From positions 1 through 25,106 of IMG/VR virus record IMGVR_UViG_3300046028_006021: 25,106 bases of DNA, one strand, 5' to 3'. The position numbers and the translations under genes were made by a program. Numbering within the stretch: position 1 is the stretch's first letter; each line of letters starts with the position of its first letter. Below, piece after piece: positions 1 through 25,004 of the stretch. Source of the stretch: a virus. The notes under the pieces are model-generated. The model saw only the letters and a list, made by a program, of their open reading frames with translations, was not told where the DNA came from and ran no database searches.

Positions 1-1
1 T

Positions 2-85
2 GTTTTACTCAAAAATATCTTTGAAGGATATACCGAGCAAGACGTTATCCAGATGATTGAGAAGGAGGTTTTAAATTTCCTATGA
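2..85 (+). CDS. 3' end of an unidentified gene
   Basis: An open frame enters from the left edge and ends in TGA at 83-85, overlapping the ATG of the next gene as ATGA. Only 27 C-terminal residues are visible (ending EKEVLNFL), too few to assign a family. The same ATGA coupling recurs through this arm, so I infer it is the upstream member of the same early operon. Confidence 0.6.
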   Translation, partial: VLLKNIFEGYTEQDVIQMIEKEVLNFL

Positions 86-372
86 GCAAAGCAACAGCAG
101 CACAAAAACGGCTATGGGGCAGGGTTTTCGAGAATGGCTGTATAGCTTGTGACCTTGAAGGCAATTTCACCTTTCCTCAAATCCACCACTGGCGACGATA
201 CGGCAAGCGTAATCACATGAAAGTTTTCGGCTTGTGTCCTGTCCACCATTGCGCCGTAAATGCAGTACCAGGAATACCAAACAGGCATCTTAATCCAATC
301 GAGTTTGCCGCAAAATATGGCACCGATGAAGAACTTTATACGCTCTGCATGCAGCAGATAGGAGAAAAATGA
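82..372 (+). CDS. Ref-like RecA-dependent HNH nuclease
   Basis: This 96-aa protein has the layout of the phage P1 Ref / RecA-dependent nuclease family: a CxxC pair (CIAC) near residue 21, then IHHWRRYGK, then a GLCPVHHCAV segment and a C-terminal PxEFAAKYG helix. In the family these Cys and His residues form a compact HNH (beta-beta-alpha metal) fold that cuts DNA held in RecA displacement loops. P1 Ref is longer because of an N-terminal extension, which is absent here as in many phage homologues. A good ribosome-binding site (AAGGAGG) lies about 12 bases before the ATG, inside the end of the upstream gene. The stop overlaps the ATG of the annealing-protein gene, which fits a recombination role. 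The family call is by motif. Confidence 0.8.
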   Translation: MSKATAAQKRLWGRVFENGCIACDLEGNFTFPQIHHWRRYGKRNHMKVFGLCPVHHCAVNAVPGIPNRHLNPIEFAAKYGTDEELYTLCMQQIGEK

Positions 373-977
373 ATATCTACCAAAAACTGATTGAAGTGAG
401 AAAGGCTGTACCATACCTGAAAAAAGACAATACCGGTCACCAGTTCAAATATGTAAGTAGTAGCCAGGCACTAGGCACACTAAAGCAAAAAATGGATGAA
501 ATGGGCCTTTTGCTTGTCCCTAGCGTTTGCGGTGAAACAGTCTCTGACCACACCACAAAAAAAGGTGACCATGAATATTTCACCGAGATCAAACTTCGCT
601 ATACGTGGGTTAATGCAGAGACACCGGAAGAGACTGTAGTTTGCGATTGGTACGGTCAAGGTCTTGATAACGGGGAGAAGGGTGTCGGCAAAGCTATGAC
701 CTATGCCGAGAAGTACTTCCTCTTAAAATTCTTTAATATCGCCACTGACAACGACGATCCAGATTCTTTTCAGCGGAAAATTGACGATCAAAAACCTTCT
801 GCATGTATCACCGAATCTCAAGTCAACACTATTTCCGCATTTATTGACGAAAACGGCATCGACAAAGCGAAGTTTTTGTCATGGGCAAAAATCAAAAGCC
901 TGTCAGATATTACCGAGAATAACTATGACAACGTAATCAACACCCTGAAAGCACGGGTCAAGAAGGTGGACGCATGA
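369..977 (+). CDS. erf: Erf-family single-strand annealing recombinase
   Basis: The 202-aa protein matches the ERF superfamily (P22 Erf type): an N-terminal helix with the YQKLIEVRKAVPYLKKD pattern, a FKYVSSSQALGTLKQKM segment, a strand pair around YTWVNAETPEE, and the family signature GQGLDNGEKGVGKAMTYAEKYFLLKFFNIAT at about residues 97-127. Such proteins form rings that anneal complementary single strands during phage recombination and genome circularisation. The last 60 or so residues look like a separate small helical domain, usual for the family. The ATG overlaps the stop of the Ref-like gene, and its own stop overlaps the ATG of the YqaJ-type exonuclease. Annealing protein and 5'-3' exonuclease are therefore translationally coupled, like lambda Bet/Exo. 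Confidence 0.9.
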   Translation: MNIYQKLIEVRKAVPYLKKDNTGHQFKYVSSSQALGTLKQKMDEMGLLLVPSVCGETVSDHTTKKGDHEYFTEIKLRYTWVNAETPEETVVCDWYGQGLDNGEKGVGKAMTYAEKYFLLKFFNIATDNDDPDSFQRKIDDQKPSACITESQVNTISAFIDENGIDKAKFLSWAKIKSLSDITENNYDNVINTLKARVKKVDA

Positions 978-1576
978 AAATACTCGACAGCATACAGCAG
1001 GGGACTTTGGAGTGGGTGGCAGCACGTACAGGATTGCCAAGCGCAAGCCAGTTCTCAAACATCATTACATCCACCGGCACGGCCAGCAAAAGCCGTAAGA
1101 AATATCTCTACAAGTTGGCAGGGGAAAGAGTCACCGGACACCGCGACGAACTTTACCAAACTCCTGCAATGCGCCGAGGCATAGAACTCGAACCAGAGGC
1201 CAGGGAAACATTCGTAATGTTGACAGGCATCGAGGTCGAACAAGTCGGAATGTGTATGCACGACAGCGGCCTTTTTTCCTGCTCCCCCGACGGCCTTATT
1301 TCTCGCAACCGTGGATTAGAAATAAAGTGCCCAAACATGGAAACGCACATTGAATACCTGTTGGGAAACAAAACACCAGCTGATTACTACCAGCAGGTGC
1401 ATGGCAGCATGTTAGTCACAGGTTGCACAGAATGGTTTTTCATGTCGTACTATCCTGGATTAAAGCCATTCATCCACCTCGAAAAACGCGACGAAGACTT
1501 TTGCAACAAACTCGAAACCGAGCTTATAAAATTTTGTTCCGACTTAGACAAAATCGTGGAGGAAATTACACAATGA
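974..1576 (+). CDS. YqaJ/lambda-exonuclease-type recombination nuclease
   Basis: The 200-aa protein begins with the YqaJ pattern (QGTLEWVAARTGLPSASQFSNIIT) and continues with RRGIELEPEARETF. It shows the PD-(D/E)XK metal-binding core as CSPDG (Asp106) followed by LEIKCP (Glu116, Lys118), then the YYQQVHGSMLVTGC helix. The family comprises alkaline exonucleases that resect double-strand ends to make the 3' strand used by annealing proteins. The length is typical. It overlaps the erf gene by four bases and runs into the next small gene through an ATGA overlap, so the pair probably acts as a two-component recombinase together with the SSB at 9.5 kb. Confidence 0.88.
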   Translation: MKILDSIQQGTLEWVAARTGLPSASQFSNIITSTGTASKSRKKYLYKLAGERVTGHRDELYQTPAMRRGIELEPEARETFVMLTGIEVEQVGMCMHDSGLFSCSPDGLISRNRGLEIKCPNMETHIEYLLGNKTPADYYQQVHGSMLVTGCTEWFFMSYYPGLKPFIHLEKRDEDFCNKLETELIKFCSDLDKIVEEITQ

Positions 1577-1788
1577 CAACATACCCAGATCCTTTCACCG
1601 AAACAGAAATAGCCGAAGGAATACAGTTTTCACACCACCGCTACGCACAGGACGAAAATTACTTAATAGACGCAGCACACAGGGTCGGCGAGGTGCTGCA
1701 ACTCGTTTACGCCAAGTGCGGCGAGGCTACAACGAGGGAGATCGTCAAGGCGTGTGGGCTGTCTAATTACGTAAGCTATCGGGGGTAA
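1573..1788 (+). CDS. Hypothetical 71-aa protein
   Basis: Start chosen at the ATG that overlaps the exonuclease stop (ATGA); the open frame extends further upstream but would only shadow the exonuclease. The product is slightly acidic, with a central helical segment (DAAHRVGEVLQLVYAKCG) and a C-terminal EIVKACGLSNY stretch that could be a short helix-turn-helix. I do not recognise the family. Its position between the recombination and nucleotide genes suggests an early accessory function; nothing more specific is supported. Confidence 0.6.
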   Translation: MTTYPDPFTETEIAEGIQFSHHRYAQDENYLIDAAHRVGEVLQLVYAKCGEATTREIVKACGLSNYVSYRG

Positions 1789-1789
1789 T

Positions 1790-2011
1790 ATGATTTGTTC
1801 AAGTCCACAATATCCTCTGCATTGCACGTTTGCAGAAATAGCCATGCTTGAAACGTATTTGATAAACAATAAGCGTAACATCGAAATCTTCTTTTCCGGT
1901 GTTGCTTTCTCAGCATCATGTCACGGAGTGTCAATTTATTTCGAGTCTGACAAACGCCGGGGCATTGCACACGACATTATCCTGAATAATTATCAAGAAG
2001 AAGAGGAATAA
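1790..2011 (+). CDS. Hypothetical 73-aa protein
   Basis: Begins at an ATG two bases after the preceding stop, with GGGGG as a possible ribosome-binding site in the end of the upstream gene. The product has alternating beta-strand-like segments (NIEIFFSGVAFSAS, GVSIYFES) and an acidic QEEEE tail. The GAAGAAGAGG encoding that tail doubles as the ribosome-binding site of the next gene. No family recognised. Its phase with its neighbours and short spacing support it being translated. Confidence 0.55.
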   Translation: MICSSPQYPLHCTFAEIAMLETYLINNKRNIEIFFSGVAFSASCHGVSIYFESDKRRGIAHDIILNNYQEEEE

Positions 2012-2013
2012 TA

Positions 2014-2316
2014 ATGGAATCACTCAAAATACAAATAGGCGGCGATCATTACAAGCACATGGCAATCCAGCCTACCGAATATTGCCAGCGCAACCGGCTG
2101 AACTTTTGCGAAAGTGCTGTAGTCAAATACGTGTCGCGCCATGCCAGCAAAGGCGGCAGGAAGGATATTGAAAAGGCGATCCATTTTCTTGAAATGCTGC
2201 TTGATATCGAATACCAGCAAGCAGATCCTGACCTATTCGCAGACCCGCCACCAATCGACAACGCGCCGAAATGTCAGGCATGCAAAGAATTACATTATGG
2301 GGTTGGAATATTATGA
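2014..2316 (+). CDS. DUF3310 family protein
   Basis: The 100-aa product carries the DUF3310 (SaV-like) signature: IGGDHYKHMAIQPTEYCQRNRLNFCESAVVKYVSRHASKGG, then DIEKAIHFLEMLLDIEY. These small phage proteins are widespread next to nucleotide-metabolism and replication genes; their biochemical role is not established. The C-terminal part contains a CxxC (KCQACKEL) not typical of the core family. A strong GAGG site lies six bases before the ATG. The stop overlaps the ATG of a dATP/dGTP pyrophosphohydrolase-like gene, a common pairing in phage genomes. Confidence 0.85.
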   Translation: MESLKIQIGGDHYKHMAIQPTEYCQRNRLNFCESAVVKYVSRHASKGGRKDIEKAIHFLEMLLDIEYQQADPDLFADPPPIDNAPKCQACKELHYGVGIL

Positions 2317-2624
2317 TTGAAATTGAAAGAGACATTGTCTTGTGGCACCGGGCAACATTCCCAAATGCAAACGCAAAAGCTGTTATAGACAAATTGGAAA
2401 GCGAATTGAGAGAAGCAATATGTGAACTCAAGTTTGGCGATATGCAAAAATTGCTTGAAGAATTGGCGGATGTTTATATCGTCGCTTGCTCTTTGGCAAA
2501 TCGCCGCGACCTGTTCGAGGATAACGTCACAATGACGCGAGTTATTCAGGATAAAATGAATGTGAACAAAGCGCGAACATGGGGCGAAGAGGACGAAAAC
2601 GGGGACAGGCCGAGGTGCAAATAA
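2313..2624 (+). CDS. dATP/dGTP pyrophosphohydrolase-like protein (DUF550/MazG-related)
   Basis: The start is the ATG overlapping the DUF3310 stop; the open frame extends 42 bases further but inside that gene. The 103-aa product shows the DUF550 layout: W-x4-FP (WHRATFPNAN), LxKLESELREA, then LLEELADVYIVACSLA, whose acidic residues correspond to the metal-binding EExxE/ELAD helices of all-alpha NTP pyrophosphatases. The C-terminal NKARTWGEEDENGD is typical of these phage enzymes. The likely reaction is hydrolysis of dNTPs to dNMP and pyrophosphate, altering the nucleotide pool during infection. It overlaps the next gene by one base (TAATG). Confidence 0.78.
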   Translation: MIEIERDIVLWHRATFPNANAKAVIDKLESELREAICELKFGDMQKLLEELADVYIVACSLANRRDLFEDNVTMTRVIQDKMNVNKARTWGEEDENGDRPRCK

Positions 2625-5110
2625 TGGATTACCAAGAGTTTTTGAAAAGTAAAATTATTTTAAACAATAGCAGCGGTTTTACTATTGATGAATCAGAAAT
2701 AAACCCGATGCTCAAACCACATCAACGCGAAATTGTTAAATGGGCAATATTCGGAGGTTGCAGGGCGATATTTGCCTCATTTGGGCTTGGCAAATCATTC
2801 ATGCAACTTGAAATACTTCGCATCATAATGAAGCATTTCGGAGGCCGCACGCTGATAGTTTGCCCACTGGGAGTAAAGCAAGAGTTCCGCGTCGATGCTG
2901 AAAAACTCGGTATTGATATAAAGTTCGTCAGGCGTGATTCAGAGGTAAGTGAAACAGGCCTTTACATTACCAACTATGAATCAATAAGGGATGGAAAGTT
3001 ATCACCTGATTTGTTCACCGCTGTAAGCCTTGACGAAGCGTCGGTATTGCGATCTTACGGCAGCAAAACATACCAGGAATTTCTTTCTATCTTCGGCAAC
3101 GTTAAATATAAATTCGTTGCCACGGCGACACCAAGTCCAAATCGGCACAAAGAACTGATTCACTACGCTGGCTATTTGGGCATAATGGACACAGGTCAAG
3201 CGCTTACTCGATTTTTCCAGAGGGATAGCACAAAGGCAAACAATCTCACTCTCTATCCGCACAAAGAAAAAGAGTTCTGGTTTTGGCTCAACAGTTGGGC
3301 CGTATTCCTTCAACGTCCGTCTGATCTTGGATATTCAGACGAAGGATATGATTTACCGGAATTGCATGTCCACCTGCACGAAGTTCAAACAGAGTTGGAG
3401 TTTAAGAAAGAGCGCAACGGTCAATTTAATATGTTTGGCAATGTTGCTCTTTCTTTACAAAACGCCAGCCACGAGAAGCGCCGGAGCCTTGATATTCGCG
3501 TTGAGAAGATGAAGGAGATAATAAATGCTGATACTGAAAAGCATTATATCATCTGGCACGATCAGGAAGCAGAACGACACGCAATAAAGAAAGCAATCCC
3601 GAAATGTGCAGAGGTTTTCGGCTCGCTTGATCTTGAAACCAGGGAGCAGAGAATCATTGATTTCAGTTATGGGAAAATAAAAGACCTGGCCACTAAACCA
3701 ATCCTGAGTGGCTCAGGTTGTAATTTTCAAAGGTTTTGCCATAACGCTATTTATCTGGGAATTGGTTTTAAATTCAATGATTTCATTCAGAGTGTTCACC
3801 GTATTCACAGATTTTTACAGGATAAAGAATGTCATATCCATTTGATATACACTGATACCGAAAAGCAGGTGTTAGCGGTACTCATGGAGAAATGGCAACG
3901 ACATAAGGAAATGGTACAGGTTATGAGTGAGATAATTCAAAAGCACGGTCTTTCAACGTTACGTATGTCCGGGGAACTTGCAAGGAGTATCGGTTGCGAG
4001 CGAATCGAAGTAACTGGAACAAACTATAAGGCAGTAAATAATGACTGCATTGAAGAAACAAAATTGATGGAAGAAAACAGCGTCGACCTTATCCACACAT
4101 CAATACCTTTTTCAAATCATTATGAATATTCACCGAGTTATAACGACTTTGGCCACAATACCAGCAACGACACATTTTTTCAGCAGATGGACTTTCTTAC
4201 ACCTGAACTTTTGAGGGTTCTTTCACCTGGCAGGGTTGCAGCTATTCACGTAAAAGATAGAATACTTTTCGGCAATGTTACCGGATACGGTATGCCGAGC
4301 GTTGACCCTTTTCATGTTACTTGTATCCAGCATTACCGGAAACATGGGTTTATCTATTTTGGCATGATAACAGTTGTTACAGATGTTGTCAGGGAGAACA
4401 ACCAAACATACCGGCTTGGATGGACCGAGCAATGCAAAGACGGCTCAAAAATGGGAGTAGGTAGCCCTGAGTATATTCTCCTTTTCAGAAAACTACCGAC
4501 AGAGACTTCAACAGCTTATGCCGACGAGCGAGTTGTGAAGGACAAACAGGAATATACCCGCTCACGCTGGCAGATTGACGCGCACAGCTTTTGGAGATCG
4601 TCGGGGGAAAGGTTGTTGTCAGTCGATGAATTGAAACAATATCCGGTTGACGTTATCAGGAAGACTTTCAGACAGCATATGTTTGAAAATATCTATGATT
4701 ATGAGGCGCATGTTAAATTCGGAGAAAGGCTAGATGAATCAGGTTCACTACCGTCAACCTTCATGCTTCTCGATCCACCTTCCCATCATGCCGATGTTTG
4801 GGACGATGTTGTTAGGATGAGAACGCTTAACGGAAATCAAAAACAGAAAGGGTTAAATAATCACATTTGCCCTTTGCAGATTGATATAGTTGATAGGATT
4901 ATAACAAGGTATAGCAACATAGGCGATACTGTATATGATCCTTTCGGCGGGTTAATGACAGTGCCATATAGGGCTGTCACGCTTAAAAGAAAAGGCATCG
5001 GCTGTGAATTAAACCCTGAATACTTTTCAGACGGCTTGACGTATTTGGCACAAGCCGATAAACAGGTGACTATGCCAACGCTTTTTGACGTTGAGAAAAT
5101 GGCTGCATAA
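2624..5110 (+). CDS. SNF2/DEAD-type helicase fused to a DNA methyltransferase (828 aa)
   Basis: I use the ATG sharing its A with the upstream stop (TAATG) rather than the ATG 45 bases earlier. The N-terminal half is a superfamily 2 ATPase: LKPHQREIVKW near 30, Walker A FGLGKS at 53-58, DEAS box at 137-140, TATP at 167-170, SGSGCNFQR at 362-370 and motif VI QSVHRIHR at 389-396. The C-terminal half (about 455-810) is a beta-class amino-methyltransferase: motif IV TSIPFSNHYEY at 492-502, a NHICPLQ segment near 746, and SAM-binding YDPFGG at 771-776. The motif order IV before I fits the N4-cytosine/N6-adenine class. Motif IV is degenerate (TSIP in place of SPPY). No nuclease domain is visible, so this looks like protective or regulatory methylation coupled to translocation, not a full restriction enzyme. 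Substrate unknown. Confidence 0.85.
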   Translation: MDYQEFLKSKIILNNSSGFTIDESEINPMLKPHQREIVKWAIFGGCRAIFASFGLGKSFMQLEILRIIMKHFGGRTLIVCPLGVKQEFRVDAEKLGIDIKFVRRDSEVSETGLYITNYESIRDGKLSPDLFTAVSLDEASVLRSYGSKTYQEFLSIFGNVKYKFVATATPSPNRHKELIHYAGYLGIMDTGQALTRFFQRDSTKANNLTLYPHKEKEFWFWLNSWAVFLQRPSDLGYSDEGYDLPELHVHLHEVQTELEFKKERNGQFNMFGNVALSLQNASHEKRRSLDIRVEKMKEIINADTEKHYIIWHDQEAERHAIKKAIPKCAEVFGSLDLETREQRIIDFSYGKIKDLATKPILSGSGCNFQRFCHNAIYLGIGFKFNDFIQSVHRIHRFLQDKECHIHLIYTDTEKQVLAVLMEKWQRHKEMVQVMSEIIQKHGLSTLRMSGELARSIGCERIEVTGTNYKAVNNDCIEETKLMEENSVDLIHTSIPFSNHYEYSPSYNDFGHNTSNDTFFQQMDFLTPELLRVLSPGRVAAIHVKDRILFGNVTGYGMPSVDPFHVTCIQHYRKHGFIYFGMITVVTDVVRENNQTYRLGWTEQCKDGSKMGVGSPEYILLFRKLPTETSTAYADERVVKDKQEYTRSRWQIDAHSFWRSSGERLLSVDELKQYPVDVIRKTFRQHMFENIYDYEAHVKFGERLDESGSLPSTFMLLDPPSHHADVWDDVVRMRTLNGNQKQKGLNNHICPLQIDIVDRIITRYSNIGDTVYDPFGGLMTVPYRAVTLKRKGIGCELNPEYFSDGLTYLAQADKQVTMPTLFDVEKMAA

Positions 5111-5111
5111 T

Positions 5112-5294
5112 ATGGAAAACGAAAAATATTGCGGCAAGTGCTACAAACTCGACCGCATAAACGACAAATGCGAGCGATACCACGCGCCACTTGTGAAGCG
5201 TAAATCGCTTGGTTTTTTCCCGGTGTATGAAAAGTGCGCGGCGTGTTTGTTACTGCACGGGAAGGAAGAGCTGAAACGTTATGATGGGGAATAA
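5112..5294 (+). CDS. Small zinc-ribbon-like protein
   Basis: The ATG one base after the methyltransferase stop gives a 60-aa product. It contains CGKCYKL near residue 7, a CERYH segment, and CAACLLLHG near 47: two CxxC knuckles that could bind one zinc. I do not recognise the family. It sits directly upstream of another cysteine-rich gene, and I infer it belongs to the same transcript. Confidence 0.55.
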   Translation: MENEKYCGKCYKLDRINDKCERYHAPLVKRKSLGFFPVYEKCAACLLLHGKEELKRYDGE

Positions 5295-5297
5295 ATC

Positions 5298-5582
5298 ATG
5301 GAATGCAAGAGGTGTGGTAAGTGTTGTAGTTTGACAATACCAATATCAGCAGGTGATGTATTGCGATGGCACAACGAAGGCCGGGACGACATTTTGGGTC
5401 GATTGGTAATAGTCGGAGAAGGTGTTGACGCTTGGTTTAATCCAACCACAGGGGCGGAACTTAATAAATGCCCATTTTTGAGGAAAACGAATCTAAGCGA
5501 AAAATATATGTGCAGTATTAACGACACAAAACCTGACGCTTGCAGACAATACAAACCTGGTGAATGTGTTGGGTGCAAATAA
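5298..5582 (+). CDS. YkgJ-family cysteine cluster protein
   Basis: The 94-aa product begins with the CxxCxxCC signature (CKRCGKCC) of the YkgJ/UPF0153 family, followed by SAGDVLRWHNEGRDDIL, an internal CPFLRK, and the C-terminal YMCSINDTKPDACRQYKPGECVGC segment. Family members are thought to bind a metal or iron-sulfur cluster; their function is not settled. It is on the short side for the family, which is usual for phage copies. It is the last gene before the promoter and RNA region at 5.6 kb, so a transcription unit may end here. Confidence 0.8.
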   Translation: MECKRCGKCCSLTIPISAGDVLRWHNEGRDDILGRLVIVGEGVDAWFNPTTGAELNKCPFLRKTNLSEKYMCSINDTKPDACRQYKPGECVGCK

Positions 5583-5636
5583 CCACTTTTTGAATGCATG
5601 GAATTGACAATCCATCCAGCATAAAAACTAAAATCG

Positions 5637-5645
5637 TGGTATAAT
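5637..5645 (+). promoter_or_regulatory. Extended -10 promoter TGGTATAAT
   Basis: A perfect TATAAT at 5640-5645 preceded by TGG makes a consensus extended -10 element, which needs little or no -35. It lies in a gap between genes, and the predicted start at about 5652 falls on the first base of a 6-bp hairpin. The same extended -10 form occurs at the late promoter near 19.53 kb. Use by the host sigma70 polymerase is inferred. Confidence 0.7.
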
Positions 5646-5651
5646 ATGCGT

Positions 5652-5803
5652 GTCGGGTGGCTCCCGGCTGGTTAAAGTTGCAAACGGAGAAATAGAAAGT
5701 GAATAATTGCTCAAATAATCGACGGCGAACGAATAAGAAGCCAACATACTACAGCCTACTTTCTGGCTCTCCGGGTATGTCTTATGCGTTCGCCGTTTTC
5801 TAT
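5652..5803 (+). ncRNA. Candidate structured RNA or leader with terminator-like hairpin
   Basis: The predicted transcript opens with a 6-bp hairpin (5652-5657 with 5663-5668). It then has an A-rich single-stranded stretch and a long compound hairpin: 5722-5731 pairs with 5787-5796, continues after one mismatch with 5733-5737 and 5781-5785, then 5744-5749 with 5775-5780, and 5753-5756 with 5765-5768. The 3' arm runs straight into a T-rich tract (GTTTTCTATTTT), as in an intrinsic terminator. Size about 150 nt. It could be a small regulatory RNA or an attenuator upstream of the 5.8 kb operon. A 40-codon frame overlaps it (see the entry at 5699), so a leader-peptide role is possible too. Confidence 0.5.
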
Positions 5804-5821
5804 TTTGGTGAAATTATATGA
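5699..5821 (+). CDS. Possible 40-aa leader peptide overlapping the RNA hairpin
   Basis: A GTG at 5699 is preceded by CGGAG at a nine-base spacing and opens a 40-codon frame ending at a TGA (5819-5821) that overlaps the ATG of the next gene as ATGA, the coupling used throughout this arm. The product starts VNNCSNNRRRTNKK and ends with a hydrophobic SYAFAVFYFGEII. The frame lies across both arms of the hairpin at 5722-5796, so translation would disrupt that structure. Either the peptide is real and the hairpin is an attenuator, or the frame is accidental. Confidence 0.35.
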   Translation: MNNCSNNRRRTNKKPTYYSLLSGSPGMSYAFAVFYFGEII

Positions 5822-6198
5822 ATAATGAAAATCAGTTGGTCAGCAAGAACGAAGGAACAAACCAAGAAAAGGAATTTTTTTTATTGAGGCTTGAACGTTG
5901 GAGATGGTCAAAATCAGAAGATATTTCTAAAGGAAGAAAAATCGAATTTTATGATTCTTCCCCAGGTGGAGTATTGCTTGACACTAAAGCAGAGTGCCCT
6001 TTATGCGAAGGAGAAATGATAGTAACTGCCGGGAACGATACGAGCAATAACATAAGTGCAAGATGGTGTTGTTGTGGTGCTTGCGGAGTTACCGGAGACG
6101 TGGCCGCAGTTTTTGGAGAGGGAGAAGTAGAACACAACAAAGAAATAGATATGTGGCTAATCCTCCCCGCTTGTGTCGTTGTAGAACTGGAGGTTTAG
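5818..6198 (+). CDS. Hypothetical protein with a CxxC/CCCGAC zinc site
   Basis: The 126-aa protein has an N-terminal charged region (NEGTNQEKEFFLLRLERWRW), a central CPLCEGEMIV knuckle and a second knuckle WCCCGACGVTGD about 30 residues later. This is a zinc-ribbon layout, and the spacing suggests a Lar-like or transcription-factor-type ribbon, though the family cannot be named. The C-terminus (MWLILPACVVVELEV) is hydrophobic. It is the first long gene after the promoter and RNA region and is followed two bases later by the next gene. Confidence 0.6.
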   Translation: MNNENQLVSKNEGTNQEKEFFLLRLERWRWSKSEDISKGRKIEFYDSSPGGVLLDTKAECPLCEGEMIVTAGNDTSNNISARWCCCGACGVTGDVAAVFGEGEVEHNKEIDMWLILPACVVVELEV

Positions 6199-6200
6199 CA

Positions 6201-6320
6201 ATGAAAAAAATTGTTTGGTTTTTTGTTATATCGTGGATCGAAAAAAACTACGCAAAAAAAGACACAGAAAATTCAAGCGCTATCGTTGATTGCTGCCTTT
6301 TCCTGAAAGAGGCGCTGTAA
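6201..6320 (+). CDS. 39-aa small protein with hydrophobic N-terminus
   Basis: The ATG at 6201 has a GGAGGT site seven bases upstream, which decides the start; the open frame reaches further back but would overlap the preceding gene. The peptide begins MKKIVWFFVISWIEKNY, an N-terminal hydrophobic helix long enough to touch a membrane, followed by a polar KKDTENSS stretch. Its TAA shares an A with the ATG of the replisome-organiser gene (TAATG). Function unknown. Confidence 0.55.
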   Translation: MKKIVWFFVISWIEKNYAKKDTENSSAIVDCCLFLKEAL

Positions 6321-6976
6321 TGGAATACTATCTTGTCAAAAACTGGTCGAAATACCAGCATTACAAGGAGAGAAATCCCCCATGGGTAAAACTTCACTTT
6401 GAATTGTTGTCTAGCGCCGATTGGGTTTGCTTAGATGATTCTGCAAGGGTGCTAGCAGTTGCTTGCATGTTGCTAGCGAGTAGAAACGAGGGGAAAATAC
6501 CAAGTAACACGGAATATATAAAACGTGTCGCATACTTAAACGACGTTCCAAATTTTAAACCGTTGATTGAGTGTGGTTTTTTGGAGTTGCAAGCAGATGC
6601 TAGCAAATGTGTGCAAACGGTATCAAATGCTAGAACAGAGACAGAGACAGAGACAGAGACAGAGACAGAGACAGAGACAGAGACAGAGACAGAAAGCGGA
6701 GCGCCGCCGTCGCCTGTTTTGGAAATAATTTTACAAAGCGGGAAAACGCATACAGTGAACAGTGACGATGTAGAGGGACTATCTGACGCTTTCCCAAGCA
6801 TCGACGTAATTGCAGAGCTTAAAAAATGCCGGGAGTGGAACAAGAACAACACGGCAAAAAGGAAAACTGCATCAGGTATCAAAAAGCACATTTTTTCATG
6901 GATGGAGAAAGCAGCGAAGGACACAAGGCCACAGGGAATAGATCATACACTCGGTACAGGGAAGAGGATGCTATGA
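6320..6976 (+). CDS. Phage replisome organiser / helicase-loader-like protein
   Basis: The ATG at 6320 (TAATG overlap) gives 218 aa. The N-terminal region (VKNWSKYQHYKERNPPWVKLHFELL, ADWVCLDDSARVLAVACMLLA, GKIPSNTEYIKRVAYL, FKPLIECGFLEL) is the winged-helix-like domain seen in phage replication-initiation proteins. A linker of ten Thr-Glu repeats (residues 106-125) follows, then a C-terminal helical domain with the ECxxW...KRKTASGIKKHIFSWMEKA pattern that in such proteins contacts the helicase. The gene abuts the primase-helicase gene by an ATGA overlap, as expected for an organiser/helicase pair. The role in loading the helicase at the origin is inferred from family and context. The repeat linker is unusual (see the repeat at 6635). 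Confidence 0.75.
   Translation: MEYYLVKNWSKYQHYKERNPPWVKLHFELLSSADWVCLDDSARVLAVACMLLASRNEGKIPSNTEYIKRVAYLNDVPNFKPLIECGFLELQADASKCVQTVSNARTETETETETETETETETETESGAPPSPVLEIILQSGKTHTVNSDDVEGLSDAFPSIDVIAELKKCREWNKNNTAKRKTASGIKKHIFSWMEKAAKDTRPQGIDHTLGTGKRML
6635..6694 (+). repeat. Hexanucleotide tandem repeat (ACAGAG)9 plus ACAGAA
   Basis: Nine perfect head-to-tail copies of ACAGAG are followed by one copy with a single change, 60 bases in all, inside the replisome-organiser gene. Each copy encodes Thr-Glu, so gain or loss of whole units keeps the reading frame and only changes linker length. Confidence 0.97.
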
Positions 6977-8736
6977 CACCGCAAGAAATCAATGAAATAC
7001 TTGTTGGCATGGTAGACACGGTAGCTGCACATCTCCTGCCAAACGGGAAGAAAGAGGGCCGGAGTTGGTGTGTCGGTTCTGTTTCCGGGGAGCCTGGGAA
7101 ATCTCTTCGCTTGTGCCTTAGCGGAACAAAGGCCGGGGTGTGGTCTGACTTCTCCAGTAATGGCAAAGGTGGCGATCTTCTCGACTTGTGGCAGCAAACC
7201 AAAGGGCTGTCTTTTGTCGACACGCTGAAAGAGGCGAAAGAGTTTGCCGGTGTTCAAGACATGCCGGAGTTGTTCACGCCGCGAAGAGTAGTGAAGAAAC
7301 CAGCAAAGCCGCAATGCACCAAGCCGAAAGATCAGATTGCATCATGGTTTGAAGGTCGGGCGATATTCCCCAAAAGCCTTGACGCTTACAAGGTAGCGCA
7401 ACAGAGAAATACAATTGTTTTCCCGTTTTTATCTCCATCTGGAGAGTTTGAGCTTGTGAAATACCGCGATCTTGACGCAGAAAAAGACGGTGGAAAGAAA
7501 AAGATTTGGTCGAACAATGACCCGGAGTATCACCTTTTCGGGTGGCAAGCTATCAGTGATAACGACAGGAGTGTAGTTATTTGCGAGGGCGAGATAGACG
7601 CGCTTTCCTGGTATCAGCAGGGCATACCTGCTCTTTCAATTCCGCAAGGTGCCGGAGGTGGCGACAAACAAACGGTATGGATTGAAAACGATTACGACAG
7701 GCTACAACGGTTTGAAACTATTTATATTTCAATGGATATGGATAAACCAGGGCAGGAAACAATCGAACCGATTATTTCCCGCCTTGGTGTTGAGCGGTGC
7801 AAGGTTGTTGACATTGGAGAGTTTAAGGACGCGAACGAAGCGCACTGTGAAGGAATGGTATTGAAAAATTACCTTGCAGCAGCAAAAACGAAAGACCCGG
7901 AAGAGTTGAAAAGGCTGGTAGACCACCACGAAGAAATCATGGATGAGTTTGAAAACCATGCAATTTCAGGAATAAGACTTCCTTGGTTAAAAACTCATTC
8001 AACAATCAGACTGCGACCGGCTGAAATATCTGTCTGGGCAGGGATAAACAGCCACGGGAAAAGCATTTCGCTTTCTCACGTTGTCGTTGATGCTGTTTCC
8101 CAGGGCGTGAGATCATGTATTGCCTCAATGGAAATGAAACCGCGCAAACTCGGAAAGAAAATGTATCAGCAGGTCGCAGGGGAAGAAAGGCCGAACACCG
8201 AAACAGCAAAGCAGATCGTTGAGTTTTTGGCGGATAATGTGTGGTTGTTCGAGGTTTACGGTACGGCAAAGGCTGACAGGATAATTGAGGTATTTTCCTA
8301 TGCTCGCAAGAGATACGGAATACAAATTTTTGTTGTCGATTCCCTGGCAAAGTGCGGATTCGGGGAGGACGACTACAACGGGCAAAAGACTTTTGTTGAT
8401 AAACTGATGGAGTTCGCAGGGAAAAACAATGTTCATGTTTTGCTCGTTGTCCACATGCGAAAGCGCGAAGACGAGCTAAAAATACCGGGGAAGATGGACA
8501 TTAAGGGAACCGGGGCAATTACTGACATGGTGGATAATTGCTTTGTTTGGTGGCGGAACAAGAAAAAAGAGGAAGAAGGCGGGGGCGGGAAACTGGCGAC
8601 GGATGCCGACGCGGTTCTCAATTGCGTGAAGCAACGAGACAGCGGAGAAGAGCCTATGTGTGGCCTGTTTTTCCATAAACCGTCTTGCCAGTTCGTAGAC
8701 GGCGACGGAGAACCGCCGAAAAGGTATCTATTTTGA
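6973..8736 (+). CDS. T7 gp4/Twinkle-like primase-helicase
   Basis: The ATG overlapping the organiser stop (ATGA) gives 587 aa; the longer open frame would only shadow the upstream gene. The N-terminal part (GVWSDFSSNGKGGDLLDLW near 55-73) resembles the region following the zinc finger in phage primases, but no zinc cysteines precede it. A TOPRIM domain follows, with ICEGEIDALSW at 203-213 and SMDMDKPGQ at 253-261. The C-terminal RecA/DnaB helicase has a Walker A variant GINSHGKS at 357-364, Walker B QIFVVDSLAK at 451-460 and VVHMRK at 492-497. The enzyme would unwind DNA 5'-3' and lay down RNA primers. With no zinc-binding module, primer-site recognition may be altered or priming lost. It is flanked by the organiser and, 770 bases downstream, SSB. 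Confidence 0.9.
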   Translation: MTPQEINEILVGMVDTVAAHLLPNGKKEGRSWCVGSVSGEPGKSLRLCLSGTKAGVWSDFSSNGKGGDLLDLWQQTKGLSFVDTLKEAKEFAGVQDMPELFTPRRVVKKPAKPQCTKPKDQIASWFEGRAIFPKSLDAYKVAQQRNTIVFPFLSPSGEFELVKYRDLDAEKDGGKKKIWSNNDPEYHLFGWQAISDNDRSVVICEGEIDALSWYQQGIPALSIPQGAGGGDKQTVWIENDYDRLQRFETIYISMDMDKPGQETIEPIISRLGVERCKVVDIGEFKDANEAHCEGMVLKNYLAAAKTKDPEELKRLVDHHEEIMDEFENHAISGIRLPWLKTHSTIRLRPAEISVWAGINSHGKSISLSHVVVDAVSQGVRSCIASMEMKPRKLGKKMYQQVAGEERPNTETAKQIVEFLADNVWLFEVYGTAKADRIIEVFSYARKRYGIQIFVVDSLAKCGFGEDDYNGQKTFVDKLMEFAGKNNVHVLLVVHMRKREDELKIPGKMDIKGTGAITDMVDNCFVWWRNKKKEEEGGGGKLATDADAVLNCVKQRDSGEEPMCGLFFHKPSCQFVDGDGEPPKRYLF

Positions 8737-10335: not shown

Positions 10336-10668
10336 ATGGCACGACAAATAAACGATTTAACCGGGAAGAAGTTCAGCAAACTGACCGTGATAGAAAAGGA
10401 TTCATGCCTCGACGGTCGCGGCATGTTCTGGAAATGCTCATGCGAGTGCGGCGGTTCAAAAGTTGTGCGGTCGGCAAATCTCCTAAACGGCAGTACAAAA
10501 AGTTGTGGCTGTGTTGCGCGTGGTAGAGTGTCAGGGGTAAATCCAACAATGGCACCGCCTACTGATTTCACGGAATCGCGCCGGAAAATCATATATATCC
10601 GCAAGTTGAGCGCACAGGAACAGGGGTTAAAAGAAGCGCGGTCATACGCGGAAATGAGGTCAATATGA
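10336..10668 (+). CDS. Zinc-ribbon domain protein like the N-terminus of HNH/AP2 homing endonucleases
   Basis: Residues 4-60 show the recurrent phage pattern DLTGKKFSKLTVIEKD, FWKCSCECGG, VRSANLLNGSTKSCGC. This domain usually sits in front of AP2 or HNH domains in homing endonucleases and in free-standing phage proteins. Here it is followed by a short tail (TESRRKIIYIRKLSAQEQGLKEARSY) with no HNH or AP2 motif, so it is either a stand-alone DNA-binding module or a remnant of a homing endonuclease. The stop overlaps the ATG of the next gene. Confidence 0.65.
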   Translation: MARQINDLTGKKFSKLTVIEKDSCLDGRGMFWKCSCECGGSKVVRSANLLNGSTKSCGCVARGRVSGVNPTMAPPTDFTESRRKIIYIRKLSAQEQGLKEARSYAEMRSI

Positions 10669-10955: not shown

Positions 10956-11106
10956 ACAAATAGCTGGAGCGATAAAAAAAGAAATTTCAAAAATACTCGG
11001 TGATGCTCTACGCGGAGAAGAAAAATACAGACACCAAGGATTTATTCGGTGGGGGTTGGTAGAAAAAGAAATCCATGCTGTAGTCGAGAAATATATAGAG
11101 AAATGA
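10948..11106 (+). CDS. Small 52-aa helical protein
   Basis: The ATG at 10948, inside the end of the previous gene, follows GAGG at about eight bases. The product is a charged two-helix peptide (IAGAIKKEISKILGDAL, GLVEKEIHAVVEKYIEK). Its TGA overlaps the ATG of the next gene. The periodic charge suggests a coiled-coil or helical hairpin. Function unknown. Confidence 0.55.
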   Translation: MDKQIAGAIKKEISKILGDALRGEEKYRHQGFIRWGLVEKEIHAVVEKYIEK

Positions 11107-11318
11107 AAACCTACTGTATCACCGCAAAAGCAGAGGACTTGCCTAAGATCGTGCGGCGAAAACGCAAGGAAGGTATGCGGTGTAAGGGCAAGCCGGGTCA
11201 GATTTATTTACTTGTTAGCATGGAAAAGCGCATTGGAGGAAAACAGTCAGGAACCCCACCGGCCAGGGGGATACAGAACCAAGACTCTAGCCACCATGGG
11301 AGTTGCAAGAGCCTCTGA
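11103..11318 (+). CDS. Hypothetical basic protein; 3' part may be non-coding
   Basis: Coupled to the previous gene by ATGA. The first 47 residues (MKTYCITAKAEDLPKIVRRK, GMRCKGKPGQIYLLVSMEKR) look protein-like: short strands and a basic surface that could bind nucleic acid. The last 25 residues (KQSGTPPARGIQNQDSSHHG) are of low quality and fall in the region where strong RNA pairing begins, so the gene may have been extended by, or run into, a structured RNA. Function unknown. Confidence 0.45.
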   Translation: MKTYCITAKAEDLPKIVRRKRKEGMRCKGKPGQIYLLVSMEKRIGGKQSGTPPARGIQNQDSSHHGSCKSL

Positions 11319-11545
11319 TCTTGCATTTATGGCGTACTCTTGGGCCGCAAGGCTTAATACCAGGGGCCGGATGCACTTTTAAACACATGTCACTCATCAA
11401 TCTTTACCTGTGAGGTGTGCCACGCAGCAAGCCGGAGAAAGACCGGCACAAGAGTGTCCTGGGAGGTGTAGCGGTGGAGATTGCATCATACTAAGCCTCG
11501 GCGGGATAGAGAAGAGCCGCTAAACCCGCCATTGCCCAGGATATT
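11250..11545 (+). ncRNA. Candidate large structured RNA (about 300 nt)
   Basis: From 11319 to 11548 there is no usable reading frame, and paired elements follow each other. CCCC 11254-11257 pairs with GGGG 11266-11269; a 7-bp perfect stem joins 11304-11310 and 11319-11325; 11340-11346 pairs with 11351-11357 closed by a GCAA (GNRA) tetraloop; 11431-11435 pairs with 11443-11447; and an outer 7-bp stem joins 11457-11463 and 11535-11541. Inside the last, 11470-11474/11517-11521 and 11500-11505/11525-11530 cross, giving a pseudoknot or a switch. I see no tRNA, tmRNA, RNase P or group I intron signature. It ends just before the HTH regulator gene, so a free RNA or a long regulatory leader are both possible. 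Confidence 0.45.
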
Positions 11546-11548
11546 TAC

Positions 11549-11758
11549 ATGACTCCAGCCGAACGCCTAAAAGCAATCCGCCTCTCTCTCGGCATGACGC
11601 AAGCCGAGTTCGCTGCAACGCTCGGCATGAGCACGAGCCGGTACAATCAGATTGAAACAGGGAAGACAGGCGTAACGCCGTGGGGGATGTTGGCGTTGAG
11701 TGCTATGGAGTATTTGCAGCGGAAACGGCTGTTAAAATTATTTTTGAGGTTGATATGA
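11549..11758 (+). CDS. Cro/CI-type helix-turn-helix regulator
   Basis: The 69-aa protein is a single XRE-family HTH domain: TPAERLKAIRLSLGMTQAEFAATLGMSTSRYNQIETGKT, with the recognition helix at about residues 27-36, followed by a helical VTPWGMLALSAMEYLQRKR. Such minimal Cro-like repressors bind operators as dimers. It lies directly after the structured-RNA region, which may be its leader. Its GATATGATAA end overlaps the next start. The target is unknown; the TGCAATAA repeats at 19.5 kb are one candidate operator, purely by inference. Confidence 0.85.
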   Translation: MTPAERLKAIRLSLGMTQAEFAATLGMSTSRYNQIETGKTGVTPWGMLALSAMEYLQRKRLLKLFLRLI

Positions 11759-19941: not shown

Positions 19942-20020
19942 ATATGAAGGGGATGATCGGGATAAGCGGATAGAAGTTGCTTATGAGATGGTGGTGGAGA
20001 AGTTCACGGGAAAAGAATAA
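19892..20020 (+). pseudogene. Out-of-frame 3' part of the 19.6 kb gene
   Basis: A 42-codon open stretch without a fitting start has strongly protein-like content: RYVIDVYYVADEYEGDDRDK then RIEVAYEMVVEKFTGKE and TAA at 20018-20020. It is +1 to the frame of the gene at 19621 and overlaps its last 50 bases. A one-base change, a programmed +1 shift or a sequencing error between about 19892 and 19920 would join them. Confidence 0.5.
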
Positions 20021-20068
20021 AACAAGAAGGCCCGACCGTGATATAGATCATGTCTATAACAGAGGGCC
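20015..20068 (-). terminator. Intrinsic terminator for the polyvalent-protein transcript
   Basis: Read on the - strand, GGCCC (20068-20064) pairs with GGGCC (20033-20029) and is followed by TTCTTGTTTTATTC. A 6-bp inner stem (20042-20047 with 20053-20058) closes on a 5-base loop. An alternative arm pairs 20035-20040 with 20072-20077. It lies 152 bases after the stop at 20220 and before the + gene's end, so it also separates the two - strand units. Confidence 0.6.
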
Positions 20069-20153
20069 GGGCACGGTGATTATATGGCTGAAATAGTTAT
20101 GTTCGTTTTTTTCTTGGCTGGCCTTTTTCTTCCTGCAACAAGTAACTGAGGGG

Positions 20154-20237
20154 ATGCCCGAAAATGTAGTTATCATTACAGCATTGGTCTACATTATCGG
20201 GTTTCCCTGTGTCGCCGGTTTACTTGCTCGCCTTTAG
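20154..20237 (+). CDS. Possible 27-aa hydrophobic peptide
   Basis: In the gap before the polyvalent gene an ATG at 20154 encodes MPENVVIITALVYIIGFPCV then AGLLARL and TAG, one clean membrane span. A 21-aa hydrophobic frame (20084-20149) precedes it. The AGGGG before the ATG is too close for a good ribosome-binding site. The remainder of 20069-20219 shows nothing else. Evidence for translation is weak; short hydrophobic frames also arise by chance. Confidence 0.25.
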   Translation: MPENVVIITALVYIIGFPCVAGLLARL

Positions 20238-23200
20238 ATAATTTTCTGCAAGTTTTATTTTCTGCTTTTCAAGGTTCTCTATAATCTTTGAATTATCTCT
20301 TCCTGTGAGTTTCTCACTTGCTTTCAACTTGTTTATCCGTTTTGTCTGCTCGTTCATTCTGGCCTGAACCTTATTAACTGCCTTGAGTTGAGCGAGTTCT
20401 TTTATGTACTTGCCCCGAAGTTTCGGGTCTGCTTCGACCTTATCTTTGATGCTGTTCAAGGTTCGCTTCTTATCGCTAAATTTCTGCTCCGAGTAATCCT
20501 TGTTGTTATAGCTGCCTCGGCCCATGTGCCAGTATGCCAGTTTACCAATTACCGGGATTGACCCTACCATCTCAAGCCCTTTCTCGTCGCCAGTGGTTAG
20601 AAGGTCTTTATATGCAGCGTTCAAAAATTTAAACGGCGGCAATATCTGCTTTGCTGCTGCTGTACCTGCTCCGTCAGTCCTGGCCTGCCATGTGACGTAC
20701 TTCGACACGCCAAACAGCCTTAGAATATTGTCAGTGACACGATCTTCAATCGAAGTTTTTCGGCCAAGAATGAGGTCTTTTATCTCATCCGCCCCGGCGT
20801 TTGCCATTGATATTAAAGCCGCAAGGTAAACCATGTTGCGGATTGCTTCGATTTTCTGTTTACTGTCTCCGTTTTTATAGGTGTTGTAAACCTCTCTGCG
20901 GAATACGTCGAACTGTTTCAGCGTGTAGGATTTGAGCATGTAGAAAACACGCCCGTTTCCTGCTTTCAGGTATTGTTCGGACTGCTCGGAAAGTGCCGCC
21001 GGCTGAAAATCGAGCAGGTTACTATACACAAGCAATTTCACGTTGTCGGTGATCCGCTTGTTTTGCAGGTCGTCTATTACGTTGTCTGTCTCGTCCTCGA
21101 ATATATCTGATATTTTCTTTTTCAGTGCTTCCGGGTTCTTCTTCGCCTGATCTTCAAAACGTTCAAGCGCGGCATTGAGAAATGATTCTTTGCCGATTGC
21201 GTCCATCTTCTCAAGTCCAACCCATTTGAACACCTTGGCAACTGCCTTGCTCATTGTATCGCTATCTGCAAACTCCTGAGCAATGCGTTCGATTCCTACG
21301 TCCTCTTTTGTGATACGGGATTTCTTCGTTATCGAACCGAGTGCAGCCTTTGCCGTTCTATACCAGCCGTTTTCGTAGATCGTCCACGCAAGGTCGCCAA
21401 TCTGGGTAATTGCGGAAAACGGACTTCCCATTGTGTCGATATAGGAAAGGTTTTTGTATCCCTGGACAAATCCATGCGTTCCTTTCTCGTGGAAACGGGC
21501 TTGCATGATATTGACAAGTATCTGCTCTGCTTCCGGGTTCTTTATCGGGTCAATAGTCCCGTTGCTCATCAGTTCAAGAACGTATTCGGAGATAAAAGGA
21601 GCATAGCCGCGCTCGGTGTTGTACTTGTCGAGGATGTTTTTATACTCTGCGATTGTTTCGCGTATGCCTTTAATCCGCTCGCTTTCTGGGAATGGCATAC
21701 CTTTCTTATGGTCTTGGTGCAATGTGGCGTATTGGTCTTCTTCTTCCGCCAGCGCCTTTCTAAGCCGTGATTCTGCCTGTCTCATTGCGCTCTTTGCTTT
21801 TGCAACCACAGTCGAGACTTTGCCAAAAAACTTGCGTATTTCAACATTCTTTCGGATGCTGTGCAGGTAGTTGACTAATGCGCCGTCAGAGTCCATATAA
21901 TACTGATCGAGTTCGACCGGGATCTCTTTTATGGTTCGCTCTTTCGCGTTCCCTGGCCTCCCTATTCCTGGATGCCCACCGAAAAGCATCTGAGAAATTA
22001 TATCAGCCTTTTGTTCCGGCGACATTTCCGCAACTGTTATTCCCATTTGGTCGGCTCTGCGATTGAGCGCGTCAGTTATAACAGGGCGCATATCACCCTT
22101 GCCGACTGCGTTCAAAAAGCCCTGCGCGTCCTTTATGACCCTTGGGGCGTATTCTTTGATAAAGGATATATCAAGCCCGACCTCGTTTGCTTCGTCCCGT
22201 AGATTGTTGAGTGTCTCACGGTAAACAGCATACTCTTTTGCAAGGTCGTATTTTTTGATAAGCTCGTTTATTTTCTCGGTGTCGCCATTCTTTCGTGCGC
22301 GGTCCCAATCTGCGAAGTCGTTCGCGCTCATCTTTTTGGCTTTCTGCAACAATGGCAAGACTGCTTTGTTGTCGGCTGCAAGATTTGTTGCAGTATCAAA
22401 GTCGAGTTTTCGCAGTCTCGCCTCAAGTTTCGGGGAAATGTTGCGAAGTCTTGTCGAAATTGCGCCGAGATATTTATCAACTCCTTGGCTCATCTTGCCA
22501 AGCGCAGAACGGACATTGCGAACAGCCTTGCGCTTCAAGTCTCGGTTCTGCGCCCTGTTTGCTTGGTATGCTTTTTCTCTATCGGCTGCAAGTTCCTCTT
22601 GTGTGCTGCCGATAGGGGGCGGTGCTTCGCTGAAATAGATATCAGCGTTTTCGCGTTCCATCTTCTGGGCGGTGTCGAGGCCGGTAGAGTTGGCTTTTGC
22701 TCCGCCGAATGAGAAATTTATGTCGGCGTTGGTGCCGTCCCATGTTCCTTGATTGAAGATTGATTTGATTTGGGTTTTGTTGAACGCAATATATGCGTCA
22801 GTTCCCCTCGCCGCCGCCTGTGCCTCTCTTCTGACTGCAATTTCAGCCATAGCGCGTAAATCTGCAACGGTGAACACGGAAACGTCCTTGAATCCGAGCT
22901 TAACGAGTGCTTGCTTGATGAGGGCGATGATCCGGCGAACTATGGAAGTTTCGGGGTGGTTCTCAAGGAGATAGGCAAGCATTTCCTCTTGCCTGTTCTC
23001 CGGCTTGGTGTCTTTCGGTACTGCCTTGATTGCATCACGAATAGCCTTGCCCGTTGCGCTCTGCTCGTCCTTGCGCTTGTCTATGGCTGCGAGTATGGCT
23101 TTGAAGTTCTTGTCATCAAGCAAGACCTTGTTGATATGCGTTCCAAGTTCGTGAACGAGCACGGGCCATGCCTTGCCGCCTGCTATGCCGTCTTCAACGA

Positions 23201-25004
23201 GATAGGATATGCCGTTGGCTGCGAATCCCTGTATCGTCTTGCCGTCTTCGGAGTAGAGGACTTCGACTGTTTCGTTTTTTGATATTATTGCTGAAACAGC
23301 GCCGAACTTAGAAGATGATCCAACAACGGAGTATCCTTCACCTAATACACCTTGAAGATATTTTACTAGTTCATTTTCATTAAATCCTTTTTGGTATGCT
23401 CCTGTGCCATCTATAATTACTTCCTGATTAGTCGAGTCAATTACATGATGTTTCGCGTTAAAAACATCCTTTCCACGAACATTTATGTATGCTTTCCCCC
23501 CAGGGGCTAGAATGCGGCCAATCTCTTTAACTATTCCATCCCTTACATCGTCAGGAACAACATTCAGGACGGCGTTGTTTATTACTGTCTGATAACTCCC
23601 AGATTTAATGTTTTCAGTTTTGTTATAAGTCGGGGAAAAACCAGCCTCAGGATATGGTTCAAATGTGTCAGCGCCTAATTCCTTCCCGCCGATATTTTTA
23701 CCAGCACCATAATCAATTATCTTCCCTCCCTTGTTCTCTTCGGGTATCAGGTTGTCAAAAATCTTCCTGTATGTTGATTTCGTAGATGCTATCTGTGTCG
23801 GGTGTGACCCGTCCTTCCTCATTTGTATTTCTGGAAGGTTGTTTGCTATTCTGAACGCTTTTACTTGCTCAGATGTTGCATACTTCACCCCTCCCCGAAT
23901 CATATCAATAATCCTCTGCGCCTCTTTCTGCGTTGCGACAATGCGGAGTCTGCCTGATTTGACTAAAGCGTCATAGCCTGCGCCGAGTTTAGCCCGGAGT
24001 TCGGCGGGGGTGTTGGCACGGGTGGAGGGGGGGATGGATTGGGACAGTTTTGGCGATGATATTTTAGCGCCACCTTTGGCAATACCATTAAGGAAATCTT
24101 TGAACGTACCTTTCTTGTCTGTGCTGTCGCTATAATCCTTTCCTCCAGGCATGTTCTTGAAAATAGAATACGTGTCGGCTAGAGTTTTCTCATCTATACT
24201 TGTTTCTGTATCAATCCCATTTTCATTTTTATAGACACGTAAATATATTTTACCACCATCTTTATCAGATATAGACGACAACTCGGACATTTTGTCATAT
24301 TTTGCCGTTACATTATTCCCACGCAATGCTGAAAGCGTTTCATAAGCGTCGGTAAACTTCTTGTCTTGAATCGGGAAATTCCCCTTGTGTAGCCCTTTTT
24401 GCCTTCTATCAATTTCATTGAGAACTGCTTCAACTTCTTTTTTATCTATCCCTGTTCGGAAAGAAACCAATTCTATTTCTCTTCTCCGCAATGCATAGGT
24501 TGATTCATCAAGTTCTTTTTGCTCTGTGTAAGAAAAGACCCCTTCTCTTGCTTTCTTCCTCAATTTATCAAACTTGTTTTTAGCTTCTTCATATAAGACT
24601 TCATAAATCTCTGCGGTGGTTTTCCCTTTTACCTCAACTCTTCCCTCAGTTCCATTATCGACCTGTCCCGGCTTCTCCACTCCCTGAATATTTCCGCCAT
24701 CCTCTTTTGCGGGATTCGTTGCATTTTCATTGCTCGCTTTATCGCTTCGAGTTTCTTTTGATACGGGGATAGCCTTATTATCATCTTTCTTCACCTCCGT
24801 TTTCGGCATCTTCGCCATAACCTGAGCCATGATCTTTTCGCGCTCTGCTTCGTATTCGGCTAAAGCGTCGGCAACAGATTTGCGCTTTGCTTCCTGCGCT
24901 TCGATTCCGTCATCTCTATGCGCCTTGTGGTTGTTCTGCAAGGTTTCGAGTATGTCGGCACGGTCAGGGCAATGTTTCTTTACACAGGCTGCAATACTGC
25001 TCAT
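20220..25004 (-). CDS. Large polyvalent (ejected) protein with methyltransferase and HExxxH domains (1,594 aa)
   Basis: This giant protein has the mosaic design of phage polyvalent proteins. Residues 1-160 are charged and disordered. A TPAELRAKLGAGYDALVKSG segment at 332-351 recurs in this class. A Rossmann SAM-methyltransferase-like domain lies at about 412-575 (KIIDYGAGKN at 428-437; INNAVLNVVPDDVRDGIVKEIG; ILAPGGKAYINVRG). A zincin-like HELGTH is at 618-623 with EEMLAYLLENHP after it. A long helical part follows (about 800-1500), ending with a hydrophobic NMVYLAALISMANAGADEIKDLILGR helix and a basic coiled tail. Such proteins are carried in the virion and delivered with the DNA to counter host defences. 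The ATG overlaps the upstream stop; a terminator follows. Confidence 0.75.
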   Translation of the reverse strand: MSSIAACVKKHCPDRADILETLQNNHKAHRDDGIEAQEAKRKSVADALAEYEAEREKIMAQVMAKMPKTEVKKDDNKAIPVSKETRSDKASNENATNPAKEDGGNIQGVEKPGQVDNGTEGRVEVKGKTTAEIYEVLYEEAKNKFDKLRKKAREGVFSYTEQKELDESTYALRRREIELVSFRTGIDKKEVEAVLNEIDRRQKGLHKGNFPIQDKKFTDAYETLSALRGNNVTAKYDKMSELSSISDKDGGKIYLRVYKNENGIDTETSIDEKTLADTYSIFKNMPGGKDYSDSTDKKGTFKDFLNGIAKGGAKISSPKLSQSIPPSTRANTPAELRAKLGAGYDALVKSGRLRIVATQKEAQRIIDMIRGGVKYATSEQVKAFRIANNLPEIQMRKDGSHPTQIASTKSTYRKIFDNLIPEENKGGKIIDYGAGKNIGGKELGADTFEPYPEAGFSPTYNKTENIKSGSYQTVINNAVLNVVPDDVRDGIVKEIGRILAPGGKAYINVRGKDVFNAKHHVIDSTNQEVIIDGTGAYQKGFNENELVKYLQGVLGEGYSVVGSSSKFGAVSAIISKNETVEVLYSEDGKTIQGFAANGISYLVEDGIAGGKAWPVLVHELGTHINKVLLDDKNFKAILAAIDKRKDEQSATGKAIRDAIKAVPKDTKPENRQEEMLAYLLENHPETSIVRRIIALIKQALVKLGFKDVSVFTVADLRAMAEIAVRREAQAAARGTDAYIAFNKTQIKSIFNQGTWDGTNADINFSFGGAKANSTGLDTAQKMERENADIYFSEAPPPIGSTQEELAADREKAYQANRAQNRDLKRKAVRNVRSALGKMSQGVDKYLGAISTRLRNISPKLEARLRKLDFDTATNLAADNKAVLPLLQKAKKMSANDFADWDRARKNGDTEKINELIKKYDLAKEYAVYRETLNNLRDEANEVGLDISFIKEYAPRVIKDAQGFLNAVGKGDMRPVITDALNRRADQMGITVAEMSPEQKADIISQMLFGGHPGIGRPGNAKERTIKEIPVELDQYYMDSDGALVNYLHSIRKNVEIRKFFGKVSTVVAKAKSAMRQAESRLRKALAEEEDQYATLHQDHKKGMPFPESERIKGIRETIAEYKNILDKYNTERGYAPFISEYVLELMSNGTIDPIKNPEAEQILVNIMQARFHEKGTHGFVQGYKNLSYIDTMGSPFSAITQIGDLAWTIYENGWYRTAKAALGSITKKSRITKEDVGIERIAQEFADSDTMSKAVAKVFKWVGLEKMDAIGKESFLNAALERFEDQAKKNPEALKKKISDIFEDETDNVIDDLQNKRITDNVKLLVYSNLLDFQPAALSEQSEQYLKAGNGRVFYMLKSYTLKQFDVFRREVYNTYKNGDSKQKIEAIRNMVYLAALISMANAGADEIKDLILGRKTSIEDRVTDNILRLFGVSKYVTWQARTDGAGTAAAKQILPPFKFLNAAYKDLLTTGDEKGLEMVGSIPVIGKLAYWHMGRGSYNNKDYSEQKFSDKKRTLNSIKDKVEADPKLRGKYIKELAQLKAVNKVQARMNEQTKRINKLKASEKLTGRDNSKIIENLEKQKIKLAENYLKASK

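Follow-up and report, generated by a model that had tools for sequence, protein, structure and literature searches.

The window analysed here, a 25,106-base stretch, is IMG/VR virus record IMGVR_UViG_3300046028_006021, which is classed as linear and is possibly a fragment. Its rightward genes, early and replication, extend to about position 12349, where they face leftward lysis and virion genes. The rightward set comprises what we take to be ERF-like, YqaJ-like, helicase-methylase, primase-helicase, SSB and other genes, all names except SSB resting on our own reading or on tblastn matches. Near the end of this run, ahead of an XRE/Cro-like gene (11549-11758, plus strand), lies the stretch described below. 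The 69-aa product of this gene, a helix-turn-helix protein and the presumed target of regulation, matches HTH_3 in Pfam (PF01381, E 2.2e-10, 40.8 bits against a cut-off of 23) as well as many PHROG repressor families, confirming the Cro-like neighbour that the first-pass annotation had placed beside the element. Given that no recognisable sigma-70 promoter-like or terminator-like site was found on the plus strand between 10000 and 11700, the XRE gene is probably co-transcribed with the rightward run from a long transcript.

Several other features of the window deserve mention. An HNH-endonuclease-like protein is encoded at 10336-10668 (phrog_374, E 1.4e-18), about 600 nt upstream of the element. 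Positions 2579-5110 encode what we read, by its domains, as a fused SNF2-type helicase and DNA methyltransferase; relatives of this protein number in the hundreds and occur in phages as well as in the genomes of Clostridia, Bacteroidota, proteobacteria and others, whereas the rest of the phage has few. A run coding TETETETETETETE at 6660-6730 forms a simple repeat within a replication-region gene (about 6290-6976) and is possibly phase-variable. The 1594-aa protein encoded at 20220-25004 has relatives of 48-53% identity to its residues 745-1594 (approximately) in four other phage contigs, while residues 380-600 or so resemble separate phage proteins, one of them annotated as a methyltransferase. 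A metallophosphoesterase scan found no relatives.

The stretch from 11250 to 11548 on the plus strand is non-coding. A codon-usage score trained on the long genes of the same phage stays at about +0.24 in the reading frame of the ORF that begins at 11103 until about 11250 and then falls to near 0 (+0.06 over 11250-11315); no frame is convincingly coding up to about 11520, and none turns convincingly positive before the XRE gene. Together with the 230-nt gap between the flanking ORFs (11319-11548), this bears out the earlier observation that no reading frame spans 230 bases here. The accompanying statement that the genome otherwise has almost no gaps was overstated, since the window has other gaps too, one of 235 nt (5583-5817) and one of 278 nt (19942-20219). 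The G/C and A/T skews are strongly positive over the genes upstream and drop toward zero in the stretch, which holds neither iterons nor notable repeats. The short open stretches present in several frames might be read as the remains of a decayed protein gene. However, no frame carries a convincing coding signal, and the ten six-frame pieces of the stretch gave no Pfam or PHROG match at E ≤ 1, so that we regard such an origin as highly improbable.

The first-pass annotation described the locus as an ornate structured RNA of about 300 nt. Folded as a whole, the 311 nt from 11240 to 11550 reach a minimum free energy (MFE) of -101.9 kcal/mol, a stability that 18 of 100 dinucleotide shuffles also attain (z -1.03); the minus strand gives z -0.51. 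The 5' domain (11250-11374, plus strand) contains, in its MFE fold, a closing stem CCGGCC/GGCCGG, a helix CCAAGA/UCUUGG, a hairpin UGCAAGA/UCUUGCA and a GNRA hairpin GCC-GCAA-GGC, yet it folds at chance level (z -0.25, with 80 of 200 shuffles as good). The GNRA-capped stem singled out earlier does exist, but it is only 3 bp long and belongs to this chance-level domain. A further small hairpin, GCCGG-AGAAAGA-CCGGC, appears at 11431-11447 on the plus strand in the MFE fold of 11240-11550. A solitary CRISPR-repeat-like hairpin considered at about 11254-11271 was rejected, as by eye it has only a 4-bp stem. We assign no role to the 5' part, 11250-11450. What stands of the 300-nt description is the 3'-terminal 96 nt, the only portion to survive the shuffle test, which illustrates the limits of judging structure by eye.

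This 3' domain (11452-11547, plus strand) folds into a three-way junction. A 100-nt sliding scan picks out 11451-11550 with z -4.77 on the plus strand and -1.36 on the minus strand, and when the domain was folded on its own, z was -3.87 (0 of 200 shuffles equally good) and -3.62 (1 of 200). The outer 7-bp stem noted before, TCCTGGG/CCCAGGA, is present and lengthens with G-U pairs to an 11-bp closing stem, P1, in which GAGUGUCCUGG (11452-11462) pairs with CCAGGAUAUUU (11536-11546) at pair probabilities of 0.88-1.0. Enclosed by P1 are two arms, P2 (11463-11499; GAGGU...GCCUC, with further pairs inside) and P3 (11500-11530; GGCGGG...CCCGCC). The P2 loop region carries UAGCGGU, complementary to GCCGCUA in the P3 loop through six Watson-Crick pairs and one G-U pair, and this complementarity would give a loop-loop helix within the junction. 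Loop shuffles returned p 0.04 for run length and p 0.02 for duplex energy, uncorrected values for two loops that were picked after looking. The crossing helices seen in the first pass are both there as pairings, TAGCGG(T)/(G)CCGCTA and GGCGGG/CCCGCC. An alternative 12-nt helix, 11336-11347 with 11444-11455, was rejected as a switch, its probability being 0.001 and the fold about 8 kcal/mol worse when it is forced.

The purine riboswitch is built from a three-way junction, a helix between the P2 and P3 loops and a closing stem P1. With its predicted junction and possible loop-loop helix the domain has a similar general layout, and it might be a ligand-sensing riboswitch in which the P2 and P3 loops kiss and a small molecule closes P1 over the ribosome site. 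However, the arms here are longer than those of the purine riboswitch, its conserved ligand-binding core is not found, and no Rfam riboswitch model matches at E ≤ 5. The loop-loop complementarity reaches only the p values of about 0.02-0.04 given above, the example is a single one, and a DNA-binding regulator would be an unusual target. We therefore consider a ligand-sensing riboswitch very unlikely.

The sequence AGGA at 11538-11541, which is likely the Shine-Dalgarno of that gene, lies 7 nt before the ATG at 11549 and inside the 3' strand of P1, and its predicted unpaired probability in context is 0.00. P1 itself stops 2 nt short of the start codon, and removal of its 5' strand is predicted to open much of the region. 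Opening the ribosome site would cost 7.0 kcal/mol, the eighth highest value among 43 starts. An RNA thermometer was rejected, as the predicted AGGA pairing persists from 15 to 55 °C. Because the structured part reaches up to the start codon of the regulator and covers the ribosome site, it points to a cis-acting leader rather than to a free-standing ornate RNA.

Searches for known RNA families and for homologues were negative throughout. The whole Rfam library, including the GOLLD, ROOL and HEARO models against which the first-pass annotation had proposed a check, yielded no family at gathering score or at E ≤ 5, be it riboswitch, intron, ribozyme or c4 antisense RNA, and a tRNA/tmRNA search found none, in agreement with the earlier failure to recognise any known RNA. 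The element resembles GOLLD, ROOL and HEARO in being a structured non-coding RNA, some of those being phage-borne, but differs from them in lacking a match to their models and in having only 96 nt structured beyond chance; GOLLD and ROOL are far larger. A group I intron was likewise rejected: besides the missing Rfam match, no P7-type GACUA/UAGUC pair, a criterion for such introns, could be seen by eye.

The homology search proposed along with the covariance check also returned no homologue of the element in phage contigs or genomes. BLASTN against phages and plasmids gave no real match, only a weak 24-nt one in a Mycobacterium phage (E 4). We further collected some 200 loci (3.1 Mb), starting from four proteins (helicase-methylase, primase-helicase, XRE and large virion protein) and from DNA patterns, and nothing like the element was found among them by BLAST or with a single-sequence covariance model, R1. 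This model detects the locus it was built from at E 1.9e-31 and makes no other credible match in the relatives; being made from one sequence, it has little power for distant homologues, and its null is not proof of uniqueness. In 395 genomes R1 made two matches at E ≤ 0.01 per genome against about four expected by chance, the better of the two falling in a two-component-regulator gene. Exact 16-mers had 19 and 27 matches in viral contigs, none with a meaningful model E-value and all with flanks unlike the element by eye, many of the first set sitting in long open frames; no match was obtained for a 19-mer searched in viral contigs or for a 22-mer searched in genomes. Even in the nearest loci by helicase-methylase, L008 (84%) and L009 (79%), the element is untraceable by BLAST or R1, and the same searches find it missing from the loci closest by replication genes, L087 and L088 (77-78% in the primase-helicase) and L010. 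Nor was the leader seen at XRE genes in other phages. Contig L007 (IMG/VR record 3300046001) is identical to window positions 1-6096 and ends before the element; its positions 1-6395 reach 299 bases past the left end of the window.

These results also bear on the view taken in the first pass, in which the locus would yield a discrete, trans-acting RNA, non-coding and about 300 nt long, either processed from the operon or made from its own promoter. The stretch is indeed non-coding, it contains a number of hairpins together with a GNRA loop and a compact 3' domain, and its base skews drop toward zero, as in structured RNA. However, the whole element has a z of only -1.0, neither promoter nor terminator is recognised, homologues and Rfam matches are lacking, and the fold stops at the next gene's start codon. 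We therefore disfavour a free-standing ornate RNA and consider it unlikely.

A stable fold is, by itself, weak evidence in this phage, because in the same 100-nt scan two other windows among the 251 on this strand fall below z -4.7, one of them inside the primase gene. Within the primase-helicase coding sequence, positions 7701-7800 form a strong hairpin with z -4.6 to -5.5 on the plus strand and -6.6 on the minus strand. The window also holds a second structured leader, in the intergenic stretch 5690-5817 before the gene at 5818 (z -4.6), where a long stem ACGGCGAACG.../...CGUUCGCCGU bears an inner branch. It belongs to no Rfam family, is identical in L007 and has no other homologue among the roughly 200 gathered loci. 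When 40 gene starts of the window are ranked by the z of the sequence preceding them, 5818 comes lowest (-5.3) and 11549 second-lowest (-4.0).

The main alternative to a cis-acting leader, and one not much less likely, is that the stretch is an ordinary spacer that mosaic gene exchange has left behind, or else a site that functions as DNA, such as a promoter, operator or origin, and that its fold is fortuitous. The phage has a mosaic genome, the stretch lacks conservation, the 5' part folds no better than chance, and similarly low z values occur elsewhere, even in coding sequence. Operators, moreover, are often found beside Cro-like genes. However, the structured part is strand-specific and lies exactly over the ribosome-binding site, and the stretch has no sigma-70 promoter, iterons or notable repeats. 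On this balance we hold a fortuitous fold to be a serious possibility, with roughly a third of our belief.

We nevertheless favour, tentatively and with somewhat less than even confidence, the reading in which 11452-11547 is a cis-acting leader that sequesters the ribosome site of the Cro-like gene at 11549. The contrast between z -3.6 to -4.8 on the plus strand and -1.4 on the minus strand speaks for it; against it stand the missing homologue, a site-opening cost that ranks only eighth of 43, the low z values elsewhere and the closest phages, which are without the leader. While the computation shows that the stretch is non-coding, that its 3' part folds and that AGGA is buried, we infer from this how the locus would be transcribed, fold in the cell and lower translation, and what might open P1. 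The XRE gene would be read out as part of a long transcript, and the leader RNA would fold into the three-way junction, perhaps locked by the P2-P3 loop-loop helix. The closing stem P1 would then pair the Shine-Dalgarno AGGA and keep synthesis of the regulator low. Opening of P1, by a protein that could be the regulator itself or a host factor, would allow more translation. P1 might alternatively be relieved by processing, or by a shorter transcript that starts inside the structure.

That such a leader may gate the Cro-like gene is proposed by analogy with established cases. Structures that bury the ribosome-binding site are known in phages for the T4 genes e, soc, 49 and I-TevI and for mobE of Aeromonas phage Aeh1 (PMC3014915). 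In T4 gene e the structure cuts lysozyme synthesis about 100-fold from long early transcripts, whereas transcripts from late promoters, which lack the 5' part of the structure, are translated well (PMC3014915). The present locus is similar in that the Shine-Dalgarno of a phage gene is held in a predicted stem where translation begins, and longer upstream transcripts are possible. In contrast, the T4 and Aeh1 structures are described as stem-loops, with late promoters known for e and I-TevI (PMC3014915), while here the stem closes a three-way junction, the target is a Cro-like regulator and no internal promoter is recognised. The pseudoknot-type pairing possible in this leader, which likewise precedes a phage gene for a DNA-binding protein, also recalls the gene 32 mRNA of T4 and T2, whose autoregulatory pseudoknot, 67 nt ahead of the start codon, serves to nucleate protein binding (PMC3014915). 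Here, however, the possible crossing helix would sit inside the very domain that buries the ribosome site.

It is improbable, in our estimation, that the 96-nt junction, with a loop-loop helix between P2 and P3, represents the first observed example of a new class of regulatory RNAs in phages, one that senses a ligand or a protein (e.g. the regulator itself) and thereby gates Cro-like translation. The leader is more plausibly a modest further example, from a single phage, of a known type of regulation. If it works as proposed, an early phage regulator would be restrained at translation by RNA structure, a layer of control that is seldom sought in phages known only from metagenomes.
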